In this document: positions 32,517-48,909 of the stretch, piece after piece | Layout of the letters: the number at the start of each line of letters is the position of its first letter | How positions within the stretch are numbered: the first letter of the stretch is position 1 | Assembly: GCA_028284235.1 (NCBI GenBank) | Contig: JANQSC010000044.1 | Span: 1-64,000, forward strand | DNA: 64,000 nucleotides | DNA from: Opitutaceae bacterium | GTDB taxonomy: Bacteria > Verrucomicrobiota > Verrucomicrobiia > Opitutales > Opitutaceae | Reading direction: 5' to 3' | Notes under the pieces: model-generated | What the model was told of the DNA's origin: nothing | Database searches by the model: none | Seen by the model: the letters and a program-made list of their open reading frames with translations, nothing else | Translations under genes and position numbers: made by a program

Positions 32517-33497
32517 CTATTGCGTTTCTAGCGGCGATTCGTCTAAATCGCTTTGGTGAATGTGCACGTCGCGCTGCGGGAACGGAATCTGGATACCGTT
32601 GGCTTTGAATTGGCGCCAGATTTCGAACATGACGTCGCTTTGCGGCTCCCATCGCCCTTGCGTCACGTCGGCCACCCAGAAGTGAAGGACGAAATCGACC
32701 GAGCTGTCGCCGAAACGACGGAGGAAGCAACGCGGCGGCGGATCGTCGAGCGAACGCTCGTGGTTGCTGGCGGCTTCGAGCATGATCTCCTTCGCCTTCT
32801 CGAGGTCCGATCCGTATGAAACGCCAACGGAGACTTCGACCCGGGCCTTGGTATCGCTGTAGGTCCAATTGGTGACTCGGTGCGTGATGAAGTCCTCGTT
32901 GGGGATCATCATTTCCTTGCCGTCGAAAGTTTCGAACAAGGTGAAGCGCGCTCGGGCTCGACGGACGAATCCGCCGGTTCCGTCGCTCATTTCCAGCATG
33001 TCGCCTTCCTCTACGGATTTTTCGAGGAGGAGGATGATGCCGCTGATGAAATTGGAGGCGATTTTCTGCAGACCGAAGCCCAAGCCGATTCCCAAGGCGC
33101 CGCCGAACACTGTCAAGGCGGTTAGGTCGATGTCCATGACGTCGAGGAGCAGCAGGAACGCGAGGAGGTAAATAGCGATTTGCACCCCTTTCGTGATCAA
33201 GTTGCGACTCGATGCGCGGACATTGGAGAGGGCGGTGATTCGTTTTTCAGCGATGTCGGAGATTCCTGCCGCGACCCAGAATATGAGGATGAATAGGACG
33301 ACGACTTTAAGTCCGGTGTAGAGGCTGACGCGGTAGGAGCCGAGAACGAAGGCGAACTCGTCCGAGTCGAGGGTGTTTTTGATGACGTCCAGTTGGCCCG
33401 TTGCGGCTAAGGTGACCAGCGCGACGATCGACGCTAGAAGGAGCCAGCGGGCGATCGAGCGCCCCGGTTTGATGATGCTAATCCAAAATCCTCTCAT
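32517..33497 (-). CDS. MscS-family mechanosensitive channel
   Basis: Small-conductance channel of 326 residues releasing solutes on osmotic downshift. Transmembrane segments lie near 17-33, 58-78 and 107-125. The pore helix carries the Gly/Ala-rich GGALGIGLGFGLQKIASNFI (131-150), diagnostic of MscS TM3. A beta domain follows (MIPNEDFITHRVTNWTYSD) and a C-terminal alpha/beta cap. It is convergent with the glycosidase gene. An inverted-repeat element lies just upstream. Confidence 0.93.
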   Translation of the reverse strand: MRGFWISIIKPGRSIARWLLLASIVALVTLAATGQLDVIKNTLDSDEFAFVLGSYRVSLYTGLKVVVLFILIFWVAAGISDIAEKRITALSNVRASSRNLITKGVQIAIYLLAFLLLLDVMDIDLTALTVFGGALGIGLGFGLQKIASNFISGIILLLEKSVEEGDMLEMSDGTGGFVRRARARFTLFETFDGKEMMIPNEDFITHRVTNWTYSDTKARVEVSVGVSYGSDLEKAKEIMLEAASNHERSLDDPPPRCFLRRFGDSSVDFVLHFWVADVTQGRWEPQSDVMFEIWRQFKANGIQIPFPQRDVHIHQSDLDESPLETQ

Positions 33498-33551: not shown

Positions 33552-33598
33552 GAACAGGATTCCTGCTTCGCTCTACGAGCTTCGCAGGACTCCGGCGG
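33552..33598. repeat. Half element related to family A
   Basis: AACAGGATTCCTGCTTCGCT followed by CTACGAGCTTCGCAGGACTC is the reverse complement of the arm at about 45940-45982 (GAAGTCCTGCGAAGCTCGTA, then GAGCGAAGAAGGAATCCTGT). It abuts a complete family A copy. Confidence 0.65.
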
Positions 33599-33609
33599 TA
33601 CATTGGGTG

Positions 33610-33765
33610 TTTAACAGGATGCGGTCACTCGCTGCGCGAGTTCCCTTGCTTGATCCCGCAAAGCGGGAACTTGATGATTGGGAGAAAACTGGCATAGTTT
33701 ATCTATCAAGTTCCCGTCCCGCTAATCGGGACGGGATCAAGTGAGCGAAGTGCATCCTGTTAAAA
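33610..33765. repeat. Family A cruciform element, copy 1
   Basis: Outer arms TTTAACAGGATGC and GCATCCTGTTAAA. Inside are two hairpins, CCCGC-AAA-GCGGG (33655-33667) and CCCGTCCCG/CGGGACGGG (33713-33735). Between them AACTTGAT (33668-33675) pairs with ATCAAGTT (33705-33712). It ends 8 bases before the GNAT start codon. Other complete copies are at 39534 and 42882. Confidence 0.85.
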
Positions 33766-34277: not shown

Positions 34278-34394
34278 GGCTGGCGCTTGTGCTGCGAGTT
34301 TGAAGTCTGTCCGTCTGTAGGGGCGTCGCTCGCGCCGCCCGCGTTAGAAAAGTTAGAGATCAAACTACGCGGGCGTCGCAAGCGACGCCCCTAC
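34274..34394. repeat. Family B repeats: half copy plus full hairpin (copy 3)
   Basis: A left-arm fragment GTAGGGCTGGCGCTTGTGCT (34274-34300) supplies the GNAT stop TAG. A full hairpin follows: GTAGGGGCGTCGCTCGCG (34317 on) with CGCAAGCGACGCCCCTAC ending at 34394. Its arms carry GGGGCGTCGC instead of GGGCTGGCGC, with matching changes on both sides. Confidence 0.85.
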
Positions 34395-34417
34395 AGCCCG
34401 AATCGGCGGACTGTCTT

Positions 34418-37092: not shown

Positions 37093-37171
37093 GTAGGGCT
37101 GGCGCTTGCGCCACGCCGCGAATGTGAGGTGAAACGCAAACTACGCGGCGCTTCGCAAGCGAAGGCCCTAC
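37093..37171. repeat. Family B hairpin element, copy 4
   Basis: Left arm GTAGGGCTGGCGCTTGCGCC, right arm GGCGCTTCGCAAGCGAAGGC ending in CCTAC at 37171. The two arms are imperfectly complementary in the middle, as if from different subtypes. Confidence 0.8.
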
Positions 37172-37216
37172 ACAAGGGGCTGTAGACAAAACAAGATTCA
37201 TCTCGTTCAATCCCAT

Positions 37217-37335
37217 TGTTCGCTTGGCGAACACCCATTGGCTCCGCAACGCGGAGACACTAGGTCGGAACGACCGATGTTTAACAACGCTTCGCTCGTT
37301 GCCACTTCGTGGCAAATAGGCGCTCTTGCAGAGCG
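37217..37335. repeat. Array of six short hairpins
   Basis: Consecutive small stem-loops, mostly with 3-base loops: TGTTCGC/GCGAACA (37217-37233), CTCCGC/GCGGAG (37242-37256), GGTCG/CGACC (37263-37275), CAACG/CGTTG (37285-37301), GCCAC/GTGGC (37301-37313) and CGCTCT/AGAGCG (37321-37335). It includes TTTAACAACGC, similar to family A ends. It lies just 3' of the CvfB gene. Confidence 0.65.
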
Positions 37336-37341
37336 ATAGGT

Positions 37342-38187
37342 TTATCGTTCGTTTTCGACCACGGCCGTGCCGTTGTTTTCGAATCGGACGCGGCGTTGCT
37401 TGTAGAGCGAGCCGAGGGCTTGTTTGAAGGCCTTTTTGCTCACGCCGAATCGCGAGCGGATTTGCTCGGGAGGCGTTTTGTCGTCGAAAGGGATGAAGCC
37501 GCCTGATTCGACGAGGGCGTCGAAAATCTCTTCCGCGAGCGGAAGAACGCGACGGTAGCCGGCGGGGTCGCGGCGCAGATCGACTTTACCGTCGGGACGG
37601 ACTTGCTTGATGAATCCTTGCAGGCGTTGTCCGTATTCAAGCGGTTCCGACAATTCGCTTTTGTAGAGGAGGCCGGTGTGGGCGTTTTCGATGATGGCTC
37701 GATAACCCAACGGGGTCTCTTCGACTACGAGCAAATCGACCGCTTCGCCAGATCGGTAGTCGGGCCGAGCGATATCGACGTGGCGATTCAGGCGGGCGCT
37801 GGCGACGATGCGGTCGCTTCTGGGATCGAGCATGACATAGACCACAACCGAGCGTCCCGGCCGCAGCAGGCGTTTTTGCTCGCGGAATGGAAGCAGGAGG
37901 TCCTTCTCGAGACCCCAATCGAGAAAGACGCCGAGTCGTTCGTGAGTCTCGACTACTTTCAGACAGGCGAACTGACCGACCGTGGCGATCGGTTTGCGCG
38001 TGGTGGCGATGAGACGGTCTTCGGAATCGCGGTAGACGAATACGTCGAGCACTTCTCCGACGGTCGCCCAGTCGGGAGTCACGGCTTTGGGCAGGAGGAT
38101 TTCGCCCAAATTTTCTCCGTCCAAGTAGCTCCCCTGGGAGGACTCTTTGATTACGGTGAGCCGATTCTGTTTGCCGATTTCCGCCAT
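37342..38187 (-). CDS. cvfB: CvfB-family S1 RNA-binding protein
   Basis: A 281-residue RNA-binding protein with S1-like OB folds and a C-terminal winged helix. MAEIGKQNRLTVIKESSQGS and the DGENLGEILLPK segment are the typical CvfB start. LGVFLDWGLEKDLLLPF is the S1 core, and RFGVSKKAFKQALGSLYKQR the winged helix. In Staphylococcus aureus CvfB affects virulence gene expression; elsewhere its role is general RNA control. ATG 38187 is chosen over the longer frame (38304), which reads into a repeat. Downstream lies a hairpin array. Confidence 0.93.
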   Translation of the reverse strand: MAEIGKQNRLTVIKESSQGSYLDGENLGEILLPKAVTPDWATVGEVLDVFVYRDSEDRLIATTRKPIATVGQFACLKVVETHERLGVFLDWGLEKDLLLPFREQKRLLRPGRSVVVYVMLDPRSDRIVASARLNRHVDIARPDYRSGEAVDLLVVEETPLGYRAIIENAHTGLLYKSELSEPLEYGQRLQGFIKQVRPDGKVDLRRDPAGYRRVLPLAEEIFDALVESGGFIPFDDKTPPEQIRSRFGVSKKAFKQALGSLYKQRRVRFENNGTAVVENER

Positions 38188-38431: not shown

Positions 38432-39517
38432 ATGACTGTTTTGCTTCTGTTTATTGGGTTGTTGGCGGGATTGGCGTTGCTGCGTTTGGTTTTGTTTCGC
38501 GGGCCGTTTGCGTCGCCGCAGGAGCCGCCGCGGGGGATTCTCGATATGCATTGCCATACGGCGGGAATCGGCGAGGGAGACAGCGGGGCGTGGATATCGG
38601 ACGAGCTCCGACGGAGTTGGAAGTTTCCGCTCTATTTGAAGATTTTCGGAACGAGCGAGGCGAAATTGAAGGAGCGCGGGGATGAGTCGCTGCTGGAGAC
38701 GATCTCTCGTTCGATCACGGAATCTGAGTTTGTCGGCGGGGCGGTGATCTTGGCGATGGATGCTCCCTACAATCGGGATGGCACTCTGAATCGAGCGGCG
38801 GGGGAGGTGTGCGTTCCCAATCGGTTTGTCGGCGAGTCCGTCGCGGCGTATTCGAATCTCTATTTCGGAGCGAGCGTGCATCCGGATCGTGGGGACGCTC
38901 TGGAAGAGCTGGAATGGTCGAAGGCGAATGGCGCGGTACTGGTAAAATGGCTACCGAATATCCAGGATATCGATCCCGCGGACGAGCGATACGATGCCTA
39001 CTACGATCGATTGGCGGCGTTGGACTTGCCATTGCTGACCCATGTGGGCGACGAGGATTCCTTCTCGAAATCCAACGACGCGCTGGCGGACCCGAAGCGT
39101 TTGCGGCGCCCCTTGGAGCGAGGAGTGCGGGTGATCGCCGCCCACGTGGCGAGTTCGGGCGAGTCGGAAGGACAAGAAAACGTGGAGCGACTGTTGGAAA
39201 TGATGCCGGAGTTTCCTAATCTCTTCGCGGACTTGTCTACACTCACTCAATACAATCGCAAACGGTACTTGCGGACGGTGTTAACCGACCCGCGATTGGA
39301 AGGACGCTTGATGTACGGCACGGACTATCCGCTAACCAACACGCCCATGGTGACGCCGCTTCAGTATTCGTTGAACTTGAGATTGGGCGATATGTGGTCG
39401 CTGTGGAGAGAAAAGAACTCGTGGGATCGGGATGTCCGTTTGAAGGCCGCCCTCGGCGTGAAACAGGATGTGTTTACGTTGAGTCGAGATTTTTTGAAGA
39501 TCGGGGAACAGGGATAG
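38432..39517 (+). CDS. Membrane-anchored amidohydrolase (TIM-barrel, metal dependent)
   Basis: A 361-residue hydrolase with one N-terminal transmembrane helix (about 2-22), then ILDMHCHTAG (His40, His42), LTHVGDED, VIAAHVASSGES and YGTDYPLTN, the metal/catalytic pattern of Amidohydro_2-like enzymes. ATG 38432 is chosen; the extra 16 residues from 38384 are polar and unconserved. It is anchored and probably faces the periplasm. It stands alone, with a family A repeat directly downstream. Its substrate is unknown. Confidence 0.85.
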   Translation: MTVLLLFIGLLAGLALLRLVLFRGPFASPQEPPRGILDMHCHTAGIGEGDSGAWISDELRRSWKFPLYLKIFGTSEAKLKERGDESLLETISRSITESEFVGGAVILAMDAPYNRDGTLNRAAGEVCVPNRFVGESVAAYSNLYFGASVHPDRGDALEELEWSKANGAVLVKWLPNIQDIDPADERYDAYYDRLAALDLPLLTHVGDEDSFSKSNDALADPKRLRRPLERGVRVIAAHVASSGESEGQENVERLLEMMPEFPNLFADLSTLTQYNRKRYLRTVLTDPRLEGRLMYGTDYPLTNTPMVTPLQYSLNLRLGDMWSLWREKNSWDRDVRLKAALGVKQDVFTLSRDFLKIGEQG

Positions 39518-39533: not shown

Positions 39534-39707
39534 TTTTAACAGGATGCGGTCACTTCGCTCCCTCGTTTGATCCTGTCCCGGTTCGGGACAGGAACTTGAT
39601 TGATCGAAAAATGAAATAGTTTCACCGATTGAAAAATCATCAAGTTCCCGTCTCCGACGGGATCAAGTGAGGGAACCCGCTCAGCGGGTGACCGCATCCT
39701 GTTAAAA
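39534..39707. repeat. Family A cruciform element, copy 2
   Basis: Perfect 20-bp outer arms TTTTAACAGGATGCGGTCAC (39534-39553) and GTGACCGCATCCTGTTAAAA (39688-39707). Inner hairpins are CCTGTCCCG/CGGGACAGG (39572-39592) and CCCGTC/GACGGG (39647-39661), with AACTTGAT (39593) pairing to ATCAAGTT (39639). It fills most of the 302-base gap between two genes; the rest (39708-39819) holds only the importer promoter region. Confidence 0.9.
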
Positions 39708-39819
39708 CAACTTCGACCTAAGTTCCTGTTCCCGGAACGCTTTCCGGTTCCGCCTTGTCCGAAACATTCGCCCTCGACGTTATTACGTTAACCCCCTATC
39801 AGAAAGAAAATCGATTTTC

Positions 39820-41127
39820 ATGACTGCTCGAAACTACCTTAATTCGATGAAACGCATTGCTTCAGTTCTGTTCGCGTTCGCGCCGTTCGCGACTGCCCAC
39901 TTGTTCGCCGAACCAGTCACCATTTGGATCAGCTCCCAGCAGGACAAGATCTACTACGACAACATGGTTCGTCTCTACCAGCAAGAGGTGGACGCCGATT
40001 TCGAGGCGGATGTACAAGCCTTTGGTTTTCGCGAGATGCCGGACAAGCTGGCCATCGCCTTCAAAACTCAGACCAACACGCCCGACATCGTCCAGCTCGA
40101 CGAAGTGTTTTTCGGTATGTACCTCAGTGGCGAGTCCCCGTTCGTCGACCTGACCGACCGCGTCAAAGCAGCCGGCCTCGACCAATCGCTCATGCCGCAG
40201 CGCTTGGAGCTCTTCACCCAAAACGGTCGCGTGCTCGGGCTGCCGCAGTCTTTGAGCGCCGTTGTGCTGTACTACCGTCGCGACTTGTTCGAGCAGTACC
40301 GACTCTCTCCGAGCGAATTCAAGACCTGGGACGACCTGATGGAGATCGGGGAAGAGCTGGCGGCCCAAAACCAGCCGTTTCTTGCCATGGACCCGACTTA
40401 CTTCGGGATTCTCTTGAGACAGCGGGGCGGGCGCCTGTTCTCGGAAACCGGCGAAGTGCTGCCCGATTTCGAACTCGCGGTCGACACGCTCGAATTCATG
40501 GGCGAACTTGCCCAAAAACGCGTCGGACTCATGCCGGATCGCGCCTCGATTTTCGATCCTGTTTTCTTCGGAGGCGATGTCGCCAACAACGAGATCGTAG
40601 CCATCATGGGCGCGGATTGGTACGGGCTCGACATGATCCAGCAATTCTCGTCCGAACTCGAAGGCGAGTGGGGGATCATGCCGCTGCCAGTTTGGACCGA
40701 CGATGAGGGCAATCCCAATTCGGCCCGCACGTCCACTTTCGCAGGCCAGGGACTCGTAATCTACAAGGGCAGCGAGGTCATCGACGAATCTTGGGAATTC
40801 ATGAAATTCGTCATGACCAACAAGGAGGCCAACGCCCAGCGTTTCCTCCAGGGCAACAGCTTTCCCGCTTACAAGCCAGCCTTCGAAGATATTCGACTGC
40901 TCCAGCCGAGTCCGTTTTTTGGATACGACGCGATGGGGCAGATTCTCGTCGACTTAGCGCCCGAAGTGCCGCGTGTCGCGATGGATCCCCGACGCCCCAT
41001 GGCGGTATTCATGATTCGCGAAGGTCTCCTCAGCAGCGTTCTCTACGGCGAAGGGGATGCTCGATCCGCCCTGGAACGTTTCAAGGCCCAAATCGAAGGC
41101 GGTGGAGGGCCTCCTCCGGAGAATTGA
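39820..41127 (+). CDS. ABC sugar importer, substrate-binding protein
   Basis: Family 1 extracellular solute-binding protein, 435 residues, with signal ending near AHLFA (residues about 10-30; Met10 at 39847 is an alternative start). VTIWISSQQDKIYYDNMVRLYQ, TPDIVQLDE and LPQSLSAVVLYYRRDLFEQY are typical of maltose/oligosaccharide binders. It is first in a three-gene operon with two permeases. The Gly/Pro-rich tail (GGGGPPPEN) is unusual but short. The ligand is probably an oligosaccharide, by family. Confidence 0.93.
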   Translation: MTARNYLNSMKRIASVLFAFAPFATAHLFAEPVTIWISSQQDKIYYDNMVRLYQQEVDADFEADVQAFGFREMPDKLAIAFKTQTNTPDIVQLDEVFFGMYLSGESPFVDLTDRVKAAGLDQSLMPQRLELFTQNGRVLGLPQSLSAVVLYYRRDLFEQYRLSPSEFKTWDDLMEIGEELAAQNQPFLAMDPTYFGILLRQRGGRLFSETGEVLPDFELAVDTLEFMGELAQKRVGLMPDRASIFDPVFFGGDVANNEIVAIMGADWYGLDMIQQFSSELEGEWGIMPLPVWTDDEGNPNSARTSTFAGQGLVIYKGSEVIDESWEFMKFVMTNKEANAQRFLQGNSFPAYKPAFEDIRLLQPSPFFGYDAMGQILVDLAPEVPRVAMDPRRPMAVFMIREGLLSSVLYGEGDARSALERFKAQIEGGGGPPPEN

Positions 41128-41139
41128 TCCGCCGGGCCT

Positions 41140-42048
41140 ATGGAGTCGACGCCTTCCGCATCGAATCCCTCGTGGAACTGGGGGGCGATTGGACTCGCCG
41201 CCCCGTTTTTCTTGTTTTTGCTCGTTTTCTGGGCGACTCCGCTCGGCAACGGGTTTGCTCAAAGTCTTGAGTCCGACACGCTTTTTGGCGACTCCGACTT
41301 CGTCGGTTTCACGCACTACGCGGCGCTGGCCGAAGACAGTCGTTATTGGAAGGCGGTTTTCAATACGTCTATATTCACCTTGGCCACGGTGAGCGTGTCG
41401 CTCGGCTTGGCGGTGTTGCTGGCTCACGGGATTCGCTTGTGTTTCAAACGTCTCCAAGGACCCATTACATTCGCCCTCATGATTCCGGGCCTGTGTCCCC
41501 CGACGGTTCTGGCGCTCTTGTTCCTCCTCGTGTTTCATGGAAAAGAAGGGCTTTTGAATCAATGGGTCATCCACCCGCTCGGGTTTGAAACGGTCAATTG
41601 GCTTTCCGACCCGGATTTCATCCTCTCGGCAATTGTCATTCAAGCGGTCTGGCGATGGACGGGATTCATGACCTTTTTCATCCTCTGCGCGTTGAACACG
41701 CGTCCGGCCGACGTTCTGGAAGCGGCGGAGCTGGACGGGGCGAGCGCGTGGCAGAGATTCTGGAAGATCAGCCTGCCGCTCGTCACTCCTACGCTTCTGT
41801 TTTGCGCGATCTACTTGATCGTCGATTGTTTCGCTCAATTCGCCGGCTCCTACGTCCTTTTCGGCGGATCGGGCGGCTCTAACGACGCCGGACTGCTCCT
41901 GGTGACCTACGCCTACCAGAAAGCGTTTGTCGGGGGAGGATTCGGCAGCGGGGCGGCGGTGAGCCTTTCCATCGTTCCCTGGCTGGCAGGGATGCTCGTC
42001 CTCGTCGCAATTGCTCCTAGTATTTTAAGGAAAGGTCGATGGACGTGA
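41140..42048 (+). CDS. ABC sugar importer permease (MalF/UgpA type)
   Basis: Inner-membrane permease of 302 residues with about six transmembrane helices, the first at residues 17-35. The cytoplasmic EAA loop reads EAAELDGASAWQRFWKISLP, contacting the ATPase. It begins 12 bases after the binding-protein stop and overlaps the next permease by 10 bases. Confidence 0.93.
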   Translation: MESTPSASNPSWNWGAIGLAAPFFLFLLVFWATPLGNGFAQSLESDTLFGDSDFVGFTHYAALAEDSRYWKAVFNTSIFTLATVSVSLGLAVLLAHGIRLCFKRLQGPITFALMIPGLCPPTVLALLFLLVFHGKEGLLNQWVIHPLGFETVNWLSDPDFILSAIVIQAVWRWTGFMTFFILCALNTRPADVLEAAELDGASAWQRFWKISLPLVTPTLLFCAIYLIVDCFAQFAGSYVLFGGSGGSNDAGLLLVTYAYQKAFVGGGFGSGAAVSLSIVPWLAGMLVLVAIAPSILRKGRWT

Positions 42049-42869
42049 ATCGCTCCGGTATTATTCAGCTCGTCGCAAGCGTGGCGATGCTCCTCGCGGC
42101 CTGCGTGTTCCTGTATCCACTCGTTTGGATGGCCCTCGGGAGCGTGAAGTCGAATAGTGAACTTTTCGATACGCGGACGTTTTGGCCGGAAACGTGGTCG
42201 CTGGAGTACTATCGAATACTCTTTTCCAGCGAATATTTCAGTTTTGATCGCAGCCTGCTCAATTCGATCTTGACCGCCCTCGCCCAGGGGATCGGGGCGA
42301 CGCTTTTGTCGGCTATGGCTGGATACGTCTTGGGAATCTATCGGTTCAAGGGGAGGGCGTGGTTACTCGGATTGGGCGTGCTGGTCGTGCTAGTGCCGGC
42401 CCAAATGGTGGCCTTGCCCTTGTTTATTTGGGTGAACACGCTCGGACTTTTCGACAATCCTGCCGGTGTGATTCTGCCCGGGCTGGTGAGCGGACTCGGA
42501 TTGTTGTTTTTCACGCGTGTTTTTCGACTCGTGCCGAAGGAGCTGATCGATCTGGCTCGGATCGAGGGCGCATCCGAGTTTCGGATTTTTCTGTCCGTTC
42601 TGCCACTGGTGAAACCCTTCTTGATCGCTTTTGGATTCGCCCATTTCGTCCTCGCCTGGCACGCGCACGTAATTCCCATGCTGATACTGCACAGCGATGG
42701 TGTGCGTACACTCCCGATCAGTCTGGCGGCGCTGTACGGGAGCAGTTTGAACGCCCCGCAAGCCGTTCTTATGGCAGGATCGTTTCTCGGGATGATCCCG
42801 CTCGTGGCGGTGTTCGCCTTCGCCTATCCCAAACTGAAATCAGCGTTGCAGGATTTCGTGGCGAACTGA
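42039..42869 (+). CDS. ABC sugar importer permease (MalG/UgpE type)
   Basis: Second permease, 276 residues, about six helices. The EAA-type loop reads ARIEGASEFRIFLSVLPLVK. Overlap with the upstream gene (42039-42048) indicates translational coupling. No ATP-binding gene follows; a family A repeat starts 13 bases after the stop. The importer therefore probably borrows a shared ATPase of the MsiK/MalK kind encoded elsewhere. Confidence 0.93.
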   Translation: MDVNRSGIIQLVASVAMLLAACVFLYPLVWMALGSVKSNSELFDTRTFWPETWSLEYYRILFSSEYFSFDRSLLNSILTALAQGIGATLLSAMAGYVLGIYRFKGRAWLLGLGVLVVLVPAQMVALPLFIWVNTLGLFDNPAGVILPGLVSGLGLLFFTRVFRLVPKELIDLARIEGASEFRIFLSVLPLVKPFLIAFGFAHFVLAWHAHVIPMLILHSDGVRTLPISLAALYGSSLNAPQAVLMAGSFLGMIPLVAVFAFAYPKLKSALQDFVAN

Positions 42870-42881
42870 GGTGGAGTTTTT

Positions 42882-43051
42882 TTTAACAGGATGCGCTCTC
42901 TACGTTCGCTCGCTTGATCCCGTCGAAGACGGGAACTTGATGATTTAGTTTTATCGAGAAGACGAAGGAGATTATCTGCGAAAATCAAGTTCCCGCGCAG
43001 CGGGATCAAACGAGCGAACCCGCTGGGCGGGAGAGCGCATCCTGTTAAAAA
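42882..43051. repeat. Family A cruciform element, copy 3
   Basis: Perfect 20-bp outer arms TTTTAACAGGATGCGCTCTC (42882-42901) and GAGAGCGCATCCTGTTAAAA (43032-43051). Inner hairpins are CCCGTC-GAA-GACGGG (42920-42934) and CCCGC-GCA-GCGGG (42993-43005). The inner third of each outer arm differs from copy 2 (GCGCTCTC versus GCGGTCAC) yet stays complementary. It lies in the convergent gap between permease and cytochrome genes, where it could act as a terminator. Confidence 0.9.
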
Positions 43052-43056
43052 AGAAA

Positions 43057-43863: not shown

Positions 43864-43888
43864 ACAAACGAATCAATATTCGTCATCG

Positions 43889-43966
43889 CCCCGACAAGGT
43901 CGGGGCTAGGAGTCCCCGTCGGTGACGGGGCCAATAGGATCCCCGACGAGTCGGGGAAATAAGGTT
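43889..43966. repeat. Family E repeat, copy 1
   Basis: CCCCGAC-AAG-GTCGGGG, then GCTAGGAGTCCCCGTCGGTG, ACGGGGCCAATAGGATCCCC, and GAGTCGGGGAAATAAGGTT. Consecutive short hairpins made of CCCCG/CGGGG. A second copy is at 45764. Confidence 0.75.
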
Positions 43967-44001
43967 ATTGATACGGTGTAGTATCGTTTTCCGTCACAAC
44001 G

Positions 44002-44066
44002 AATCATCATGTTCCCGTCAGCGACGGGATCAAGCGAGCGAACGAAGAGAGCGCATCCTGTTAAAA
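44002..44066. repeat. Family A right-half remnant
   Basis: AATCATCATGTTCCCGTCAG, CCCGTC-AGC-GACGGG, and GAGAGCGCATCCTGTTAAAA. The left half is absent. Confidence 0.75.
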
Positions 44067-45167: not shown

Positions 45168-45392
45168 ATGCAGATTGAATCCAGCATGAACGCCGCCGAG
45201 ATAATTCAGAAGATCGAAGCCATGCCGGATGATGAAAAGGGAAAAGTCATCGAGTTCATTCGGCAATTGGCTCAAGAGAAGTACAACGAGGAACAAATCC
45301 AAATTGCTTCTCAACGACTTGATGACTTCGAAAACGGTGTTCAAGAGGCGATTCCACATGAAGATGCCATGCGACGTTTACGCGGTGATTGA
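45168..45392 (+). CDS. Type II antitoxin (ParD/addiction-module type)
   Basis: A 74-residue acidic helical protein. AAEIIQKIEAMPDDEKGKVI is typical of small addiction-module antitoxins, and the C-terminal half (ENGVQEAIPHEDAMRRLRGD) is the likely toxin-binding tail. Its stop overlaps the toxin start (TTGA at 45389), as in TA operons. A GAAGAAG sequence about 10 bases upstream may be the ribosome site. It would neutralise the next gene's product and autoregulate. Confidence 0.8.
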   Translation: MQIESSMNAAEIIQKIEAMPDDEKGKVIEFIRQLAQEKYNEEQIQIASQRLDDFENGVQEAIPHEDAMRRLRGD

Positions 45393-45676
45393 AGCCGGTT
45401 CTTCATCTTAGCCAGGCACTGGCTGACGAACAAAGAGAAGTCGCATTTTGGAATTCGCAAAGTCCCGACCTCGGAGCGATTTTTCTTGCCGAGCTGTCCA
45501 ATGCGATCGACGCAATCGCGAACGCCCCTAATGGGTATGCTCGGGTGAAAAAGGGCGTCCAGCTCCGGCGATTTGTTGAGAAGCGTTTTAGTACTGCGAT
45601 ACTCTACCGGTATTATGAACGCGAGGACTTAGTGTTGATTGTCCGTGTCTACAACTGTCGCATGAACCCGAAGTGA
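45389..45676 (+). CDS. ParE/RelE-superfamily toxin
   Basis: A 95-residue toxin with start TTG 45389 overlapping the antitoxin stop. FWNSQSPDLGAIFLAELSNA, a segment near VKKGVQLRRFVEKRFSTAIL and LYRYYEREDLVLIVRVYNCR show the RelE/ParE fold pattern (helical hairpin, then strands ending in I-RVY). ParE members poison gyrase and RelE members cleave mRNA; the sequence does not decide which. The pair sits in the repeat-rich, compositionally distinct stretch and was probably acquired. Confidence 0.85.
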   Translation: MKPVLHLSQALADEQREVAFWNSQSPDLGAIFLAELSNAIDAIANAPNGYARVKKGVQLRRFVEKRFSTAILYRYYEREDLVLIVRVYNCRMNPK

Positions 45677-45763: not shown

Positions 45764-45856
45764 GCTAGGAGTCCCCGTCGGTGACGGGGCCAATAGGATC
45801 CCCGATGAACCACCGACTCTGTCGGGGTCCCTAGCTGGATCGGGGAAATAAGGTTC
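45764..45856. repeat. Family E repeat, copy 2 (interrupted)
   Basis: GCTAGGAGTCCCCGTCGGTG and ACGGGGCCAATAGGATCCCC match copy 1. Then an extra segment (about TGAACCACCGACTCTGTCGG) sits before the shared end CGGGGAAATAAGGTT. Confidence 0.7.
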
Positions 45857-45901: not shown

Positions 45902-46052
45902 AATCATCAAGTTCCCGCCCCGCGGGATCAAGTGAGGTCCGCCGAAGTCCTGCGAAGCTCGTAGAGCGAAGAAGGAATCCTGTTAAAAATGAAAATCCTG
46001 TTGGCGAAGCCATCCTGTAGCCCCGACAAGTCGGGGCGTATCCTGTTAAAAA
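45902..46052. repeat. Family A remnants in tandem
   Basis: A right-half copy (AATCATCAAGTTCCCG to AATCCTGTTAAAA, 45902-45988), then two shorter pieces: AATCCTGTTGGCGAAGC and CATCCTGTAG, followed by CCCCGACAAGTCGGGG and TATCCTGTTAAAAA. With the two features to its left, it fills most of the 443-base gap before the helicase. No gene is seen. Confidence 0.7.
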
Positions 46053-48683: not shown

Positions 48684-48909
48684 TTTAAACAGGATGCGCC
48701 CCGACTGGTCGGGGCTCGTTTGATCACGCTTCGCGTGAACTTGATGTTTTTGTAGGGCTGGCGCTTGCGCCATGCCGCGTCTCAAAATGACGCTCCTGCA
48801 ACTTCGAACCACGCGGCGCGGCGCAAGCGCCGGCCCTACACAGTCGGGTCTTTGACGGGGCGTCGAAGTCCTGCGTAGCTCGGAGAGCGAAGAAGGAATC
48901 CTGTTAAAA
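48684..48909. repeat. Family A element carrying a nested family B hairpin
   Basis: Left half: TTTAAACAGGATGCGCC, CCCCGACTGGTCGGGG, CACGCTTCGCGTG, GAACTTGATG. Right half: GGGTCTTTGACGGGGCGTCG, GAAGTCCTGCGTAGCTCGGA, GAGCGAAGAAGGAATCCTGT then TAAAA. A complete family B hairpin (48752-48839) sits where the central loop would be. No gene is visible in the 308-base gap it fills. Confidence 0.75.
48752..48839. repeat. Family B hairpin element, copy 6 (nested)
   Basis: GTAGGGCTGGCGCTTGCGCC at the left and GGCGCAAGCGCCGGCCCTAC at the right, with CATGCCGCGT and ACGCGGC continuing the stem. Confidence 0.85.

Follow-up and report, generated by a model that had tools for sequence, protein, structure and literature searches.

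In a 64-kb stretch of an Opitutaceae contig (hereafter the window), which belongs to a genome of 6.13 Mb in 81 contigs labelled G000, a repeat that we call family A recurs between genes with arms whose sequence differs from copy to copy and whose self-complementarity is retained. What kind of element keeps its fold while its stems change, and is that fold read in RNA or in DNA? We consider it probable that family A is a dispersed, non-coding and non-autonomous mobile repeat akin to repetitive extragenic palindromes (REPs) and their mosaics (bacterial interspersed mosaic elements, BIMEs), copied as a folded single strand by an HUH-type enzyme. Taken separately, the proposition that family A is an inserted repeat of mobile type is very likely, whereas the HUH single-strand mechanism as its means of movement is about as likely as not.

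Three copies composed of paired halves reside in the window. Copy 1 (33609..33765), composed of two inverted half-units at 33609-33675 (+) and 33705-33765 (-), lies between divergent genes with predicted boundaries at 33497 and 33774; copy 2 (39534..39707; half-units at 39534-39600, +, and 39639-39707, -) between predicted genes 38432-39517 and 39820-41127; and copy 3 (42879..43052; half-units at 42881-42941, +, and 42984-43050, -) between convergent genes predicted to end at 42869 and 43057. A preliminary description of the region had reported perfect 20-bp outer arms in copies 2 and 3, with inner eight bases that differ between the two and inner hairpins that remain paired. All of this was reproduced: the arms of copy 2 (39534-39553 with 39688-39707) are complementary at 20/20 positions and those of copy 3 (42879-42900 with 43031-43052) at 22/22, two bases beyond the original 20, the inner eight bases (GCGGTCAC and GCGCTCTC) differ at two of eight positions, and the inner hairpins match those quoted. 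Copy 1, said to behave alike, does so in part: pairing is seen in its hairpins (CCCGCAAAGCGGG; CCCGTCCCGATTAGCGGGACGGG), but complementarity of the outer arms ends after 13 bases. The statement that no open reading frame (ORF) lies inside the repeats is correct in that a simple gene finder places no gene of at least 40 aa in copies 1-3, but a doubtful 49-aa gene covers a lone half-unit at 44006 and a mechanical ORF list includes frames overlapping copy 1. Compared with shuffled sequence, single-strand DNA folding yields z scores of -11.45 for copy 3 and -10.30 for copy 2. With at most 2 mismatches allowed, the window has 12 occurrences of the word TTTTAACAGGATGC where 0.29 would be expected, and 0/100 shuffles attain 12; a model of the half-unit has ten matches there.

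The unit of family A is best described as a half of about 60 nt, reading inward from either end as TTTTAACAGGAT-hairpin 1-CNNGAT-hairpin 2-ACNNGAT, in which the NN of the inner words is mostly TT, AT or AG. In an alignment of 49 half-units (A1) no variation is seen in the words AACAGGAT and GAT or in the last C-TGAT, a constancy partly built in by selection, as the A1 sequences were chosen with a pattern demanding such words; matches to the model include word variants. Two kinds of first segment occur, GATGCGXTC...TCX'CT and GATACG-hairpin-CTA. Among the 64 half-units (of 111) that fit the former pattern, X pairs with X' in 60, as C-G (42), T-A (11) or G-C (7). Whole stems are replaced, including by stems of other length, while the words and the places of the hairpins stay. 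In some copies of the relative G008 similarity extends outward beyond AACAGG to another TTTTAACAGGAT.

Paired changes across copies had been taken as a sign that the folded form is what is kept, and the covariation of family A pairing is real. Two-sided changes fill 70 cells of A1, compared with 21.4 after shuffling, and the covariation score of A1 is 0.563 against 0.189, with 0/500 shuffles as high in either measure; when the partner is displaced by one to three columns the score falls to 0.05-0.10. Support is weaker in the two measures that relatedness distorts least: 6 pairs show two-sided change against 5.0 shuffled (reached by 70/500 shuffles), and further pair types number 16 against 13.7 (reached by 61/500). 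For 102 half-units fitted to the model, a procedure that leans towards structure, the corresponding values are 189 two-sided cells against 65.5 and a score of 0.608 against 0.157 (0/500 each), and the two weaker measures were reached by 9 and 21 of 500 shuffles. The same picture came from an alignment-free comparison of the five bases at either end of the segment between the two words: in 108 copies, 4.47 of the five pair when both ends come from one copy and 2.92 when they come from different copies, and in the 70 copies without CCCG stems the values are 4.33 and 2.73. What this wider comparison modifies is the unit, which extends beyond the long outer arms to the whole half with its local hairpins.

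The preliminary description had left the folded form as RNA or a cruciform, and neither is singled out by the stem cells, of which 490 are Watson-Crick, 9 G.U, 12 A.C and 36 other. RNA made from this strand would give more G.U than A.C, so that 9 against 12, small numbers as they are, do not favour RNA. A structured RNA, either a cis-acting mRNA element or a small RNA whose fold is selected by the host, would nonetheless fit the covariation together with the stable RNA fold of copy 3 (z -11.59), and many copies are near stop codons, 24 of 69 gaps with copies being convergent versus 36 of 151 gaps over 150 bp. Against these points, no Rfam match was obtained in the window at gathering scores, and all four gene orientations occur around the copies, divergent included. 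The position of some copies between convergent genes also bears on whether the repeats might be intrinsic, possibly bidirectional, transcription terminators; a simple scan does return two single family A hairpins with weak T tails. However, on either strand the T run stands 5' and the A run 3' of the whole stem, and copy 1 separates divergent genes, which makes this a very improbable function.

The comparison of orthologous junctions also argues against an RNA conserved in place. Across the genus, the genes surrounding copies 2 and 3 retain their order, with a DNA identity of approximately 65-78%. At the copy 2 junction neither AACAGGAT nor ATCCTGTT is found in the four relatives that keep both genes, and at the copy 3 junction both words are lacking in 9/10 relatives; in G003, G010 and G006 just ~34 bp separate the aligned ends, and several other relatives carry other palindromic repeats there. 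Conversely, two junctions of the region at 53.9-58.7 kb of the window hold half-units in G008 and none in G000, with orthologous genes (62-80% protein identity) on both sides of each. The element is therefore restricted to particular species at conserved junctions, being mostly missing or differently built, which points to an inserted, dispersed repeat and not to a conserved cis-RNA. Dispersal is also recorded in G008 by near-identical halves (at least 93%) that occupy different sites with different flanks and end at AACAGGATGC and CATGATGAGAA. A copy common to G003 and G010 is 78.6% identical, against 82.7% and 84.0% for its flanks, and of its 8 stem pairs, inspected by eye, one shows a compensated change, one a wobble and two are broken. 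Divergence and broken pairs together suggest that a copy decays once fixed, and the conservation of this copy, no better than that of its flanks, gives no indication that the fold serves the host at fixed sites. With the element missing from most orthologous junctions, we regard a host-selected structured RNA as improbable.

The broken pairs of the G003/G010 copy would also be compatible with DNA mechanics as the cause, template switching perfecting quasi-palindromes with no selection and no enzyme reading the fold. Consistent with this, the mismatches are without strand bias, and this genome has 62 distinct second hairpins for which exact repeats elsewhere are few. Searched in 284 kb, these 62 sequences gave 54 occurrences in family A context and 5 elsewhere, compared with 1 for the reversed control, which does not support the exchange of exact cassettes; a shared pool of exact hairpin cassettes was accordingly rejected. 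Template switching does not readily explain how whole stems, even of different lengths, come to be replaced while words and hairpin places are kept, and the dispersal of the repeat would require a separate cause. As a full account it is unlikely.

We examined the behaviour of the halves in a dispersal sample of 464 kb, comprising the window together with eleven more stretches from the same genome and nine from G008, all picked for richness. It contains 102 half-units, of which 64 form 32 inverted pairs (at most 600 bases apart, with spacers of 11 to 542 nt) and 38 are single; the midpoints of 99 of the 102 fall outside predicted genes of at least 60 aa, although 84% of the sequence is coding. 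Parsing succeeded for 22 of the 32 pairs, although the wrong word was taken as the dividing point in one parsed row (L163 4868). The six bases that follow GAT are common to both halves in 13/22 pairs (4.8 expected, 0/2000 shuffles), X in 16/22 (10.4 expected, P 0.003) and the NN of the third word in 18/22 (12.8 expected, P 0.003), whereas the second hairpin is identical between halves in 0/22 pairs and its first four bases agree in 6/22 (3.7 expected, P 0.10). Arms and words thus match inside one element and hairpins differ. In 11 of the 32 pairs both halves are of the X type; 10 of these share X and 11/11 keep local pairing in both halves, so that local and long-range pairing are poorly separable.

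Halves also associate with a second, multi-hairpin module, family B. Family B words, 27 in the sample, lie inward of 8 and outward of 2 of the 38 lone halves and beside 0 of the 32 pairs, a placement indicating that halves combine as modules. The plan of family B is AACCTTATT-hairpin-TCCTATTGG-hairpin-ACTCCTAG-hairpin-CGATGAC, with variable hairpins and fixed linkers; it is present at 43880-43975, 45765-45850 and 37205-37345 of the window and at loci L021 and L160, where it may form inverted pairs or adjoin lone family A halves. At L163 (8472-8915) two family A copies follow one another in tandem, separated by a duplicate of part of the start of the downstream gene.

Fixed 14-bp ends, inverted and present at many sites, would also characterize a miniature inverted-repeat transposable element (MITE) of a DDE transposon with TTTTAACAGGATGC as terminal inverted repeats (TIRs). 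The flanks of the 32 pairs show no excess of direct repeats of 2 or 3 bases and a slight one at 4-6 bases: repeats of at least 4 bases number 4 against 2.2 expected (standard deviation 1.3), and those of at least 5 bases 2 against 0.5 (standard deviation 0.66). Lone halves and free internal stems are unusual for MITEs, and we judge this origin unlikely. The ends, TTTTAAC...GTTAAAA, resemble the core boxes of attC sites and could suggest integron-like recombination sites. However, an integrase above the curated cut-off is encoded in 1/11 genomes (G007) and not in the copy-rich G000 and G008, and lone halves exist; an attC-like role is extremely improbable.

Among described systems, family A most resembles REPs, REP doublets and BIMEs. 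The earlier statement that no named family has this plan was too strong as regards its general outline, since inverted REP doublets with compensatory changes have been described (PMC3116915). According to that source, such doublets (REPINs) are extragenic, leave singlets as remnants and frequently show compensatory changes; family A shares with them the intergenic inverted doublets and singlets, the variable spacer, the compensated hairpins and the clusters. It differs in having two hairpins per half and fixed words with free stems in place of a conserved REP sequence, and in lacking both a GTAG-like tag and a REP-associated tyrosine transposase (RAYT) gene bordered by it. The neighbours of hairpin 2 are CNNGAT and ACNNGAT instead of GTAG or a related tetranucleotide, and GTAG appears only on the other strand of some G008 copies (GGGCTAC). 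The E. coli enzyme, as reported in PMC8266576, needs GTAG and a conserved bulge. Having neither a fixed GTAG nor a RAYT of its own, family A was not filed as a REPIN. With BIMEs it has in common that a half joins its own inverse or a family B module, whereas its modules are multi-hairpin chains with fixed linkers and contain no E. coli-type REP sequence. GTAG and CGTC tags, and TIR families beside tyrosine transposases, are treated in PMC3733652, where Opitutus terrae, a verrucomicrobium, is given as rich in GTAG repeats. Those palindromes are likewise dispersed, and some of the TIR families in that source are self-complementary; in family A neither tag is fixed and no tyrosine transposase gene was found bordered by it. 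A further parallel is offered by the ends of IS200/IS605 elements such as ISDra2, in which short words precede hairpins. The target of ISDra2 is TTGAT, which is among the fixed words of family A; unlike such elements, no family A copy was found with a TnpA gene inside or beside it. We found no description of family A sequences in open-licence literature, which is not proof of absence, and a literature search on sequence words gave no title on bacterial repeats of this kind among the matches listed (best 10 of 16). The general plan is known, and the particular build, with fixed words, free paired stems, two hairpins per half and a family B mosaic, is a variant of it.

Active REP/RAYT systems accompany family A in the genus, which speaks for a mobile repeat of REP kind. 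The RAYT genes at L031, L032, L092, L094, L098, L105, L106 and L111 are bordered by differing REP pairs of their own (GTAGGGCCGGCGC round L031, GGTGGAACGCGAC round L032), and the REP types at RAYT loci (GTAGGGCC, GGTGGAAC, GTAGCTCA and TGTAGGAG) represent several REP/RAYT systems in one genus; Y1 proteins were compared for 23 of 30 loci. The genome of the window itself encodes three Y1 proteins (L031, L032 and L033). Inverted REP pairs of GTAGGG type are also present in the window at 48751-48840, 37093-37172 and 34314-34396, the first two being of the type that flanks the L031 RAYT gene.

Several observations weigh against a mobile repeat handled by an HUH enzyme. Neither AACAGGATGC nor TTAACAGGAT was found in the flanks (~1.5 kb, less at contig ends) of any of the 30 RAYT/Y1 loci of 11 genomes, and the occurrence of Y1 genes does not follow that of the repeat: G005 has Y1 but no family A match, G010 two family A matches and no Y1 gene. 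G008 has a half-unit in the very slot of copy 3, with other hairpins in another arrangement. An exact empty site with its target sequence was not obtained, the flanks of copies 2 and 3 being too diverged, no transposition was observed, and no autonomous copy, with a gene between inverted halves, was seen by eye among the matches listed. The usual evidence for an HUH enzyme is missing, but one may still be at work because a RAYT need not carry the repeat. REPINs occur in E. coli genomes without RAYT (PMC8049555), so that a missing enzyme is a known situation.

We infer that insertion of family A is enzymatic, with folded single-stranded DNA as substrate and an HUH (Y1-type) transposase as the enzyme. 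If the folded single strand were the form that is copied and inserted, stems could be free in sequence and yet would have to pair. The fixed words would be the likely recognition marks, perhaps along with a TC/TC step that is left unpaired in hairpin 1, and lone halves would be remnants or mosaics with other modules. A more radical proposal, possible but rather unlikely, is that families A and B constitute an undescribed class of mobile repeats in which recognition resides in linkers and hairpin positions, not in hairpin sequence, with a non-RAYT enzyme and with the linker word (CTTGAT/CATGAT/CAGGAT) as a changeable guide matching between halves. REPs and REPINs are recognized by a nearly fixed sequence, whereas family A has fixed words and free but paired stems. 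With its many copies in one genome, nature has in effect mutagenized a folded substrate, from which the features that a mobilizer must see could be deduced. The copies also pose the question of which enzyme moves a REP-like element that borders no RAYT found here.

The distribution of family A is narrow. In a model search of the genus, which scored 150 candidates per genome so that the larger counts are lower bounds, half-units number at least 108 in this genome and at least 49 in G008, followed by 17 in G007, 11 in G004, 6 in G001, 5 in G002, 3 in G003 and 2 in G010; three of the ten congeners (G005, G006 and G009) gave no match. Of 378 relatives, 3 contain a match to a strict pattern, and these 3 belong to this genus. 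Across 100 family genomes, searched with stricter filters and 53 candidates per genome, matches at E 1e-6 were confined to this genome and to G022, a member of another genus. G022 has three half-units on one 14.7-kb contig (L201, C56), one of them 24 bp after a sulfatase gene, which may reflect transfer or a misbinned contig. Matches in G039 and G041 were set aside as chance, their sequence not continuing into the half-unit plan. An 18-base pattern recovered 13 stretches from named genomes, and the six of these that were read come from three Opitutaceae/Opitutales assemblies (OX638348.1, JAPKDW and JAJFLS).

Within G008 the repeats cluster, with 27 matches in 160 kb picked for richness against 3 in an evenly spaced 400 kb. 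Two candidate causes were rejected: sulfatase-rich regions, as a sulfatase motif occurs in 1/122 genes of the clusters against 7/352 of the even sample, and proximity to the replication terminus, as neither skew turn (one at about 1.3-2.0 Mb, the other at about 3.6 Mb) coincides with the clusters, which lie at 2.83-2.91 and 3.14-3.18 Mb.

The window contains further half-units. The lone half-unit at 44006..44066 (-) and one with an unusual first hairpin at 45906..45988 (-) each have a family B module inward, and the latter is followed at 45995..46051 (-) by a weak match (E 0.00035) of another type, AACAGGATACG-hairpin-CTACAGGAT-hairpin-AACAGGAT. A half-unit at 48684..48745 (+) has a degenerate right-hand partner (to 48909), and the REP pair at 48751..48840 is nested in this copy. 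The word AACAGGAT totals 21 in the window against 1.36 expected; extra words lie 15-80 bp outside family A copies at 33553, 39462, 43069, 44090, 45995, 48623 and 48926, two of them within gene 3' ends. Between repeat copies, at 45168-45676, are two small adjacent genes of 74 and 95 aa, which we take to resemble a toxin-antitoxin pair.

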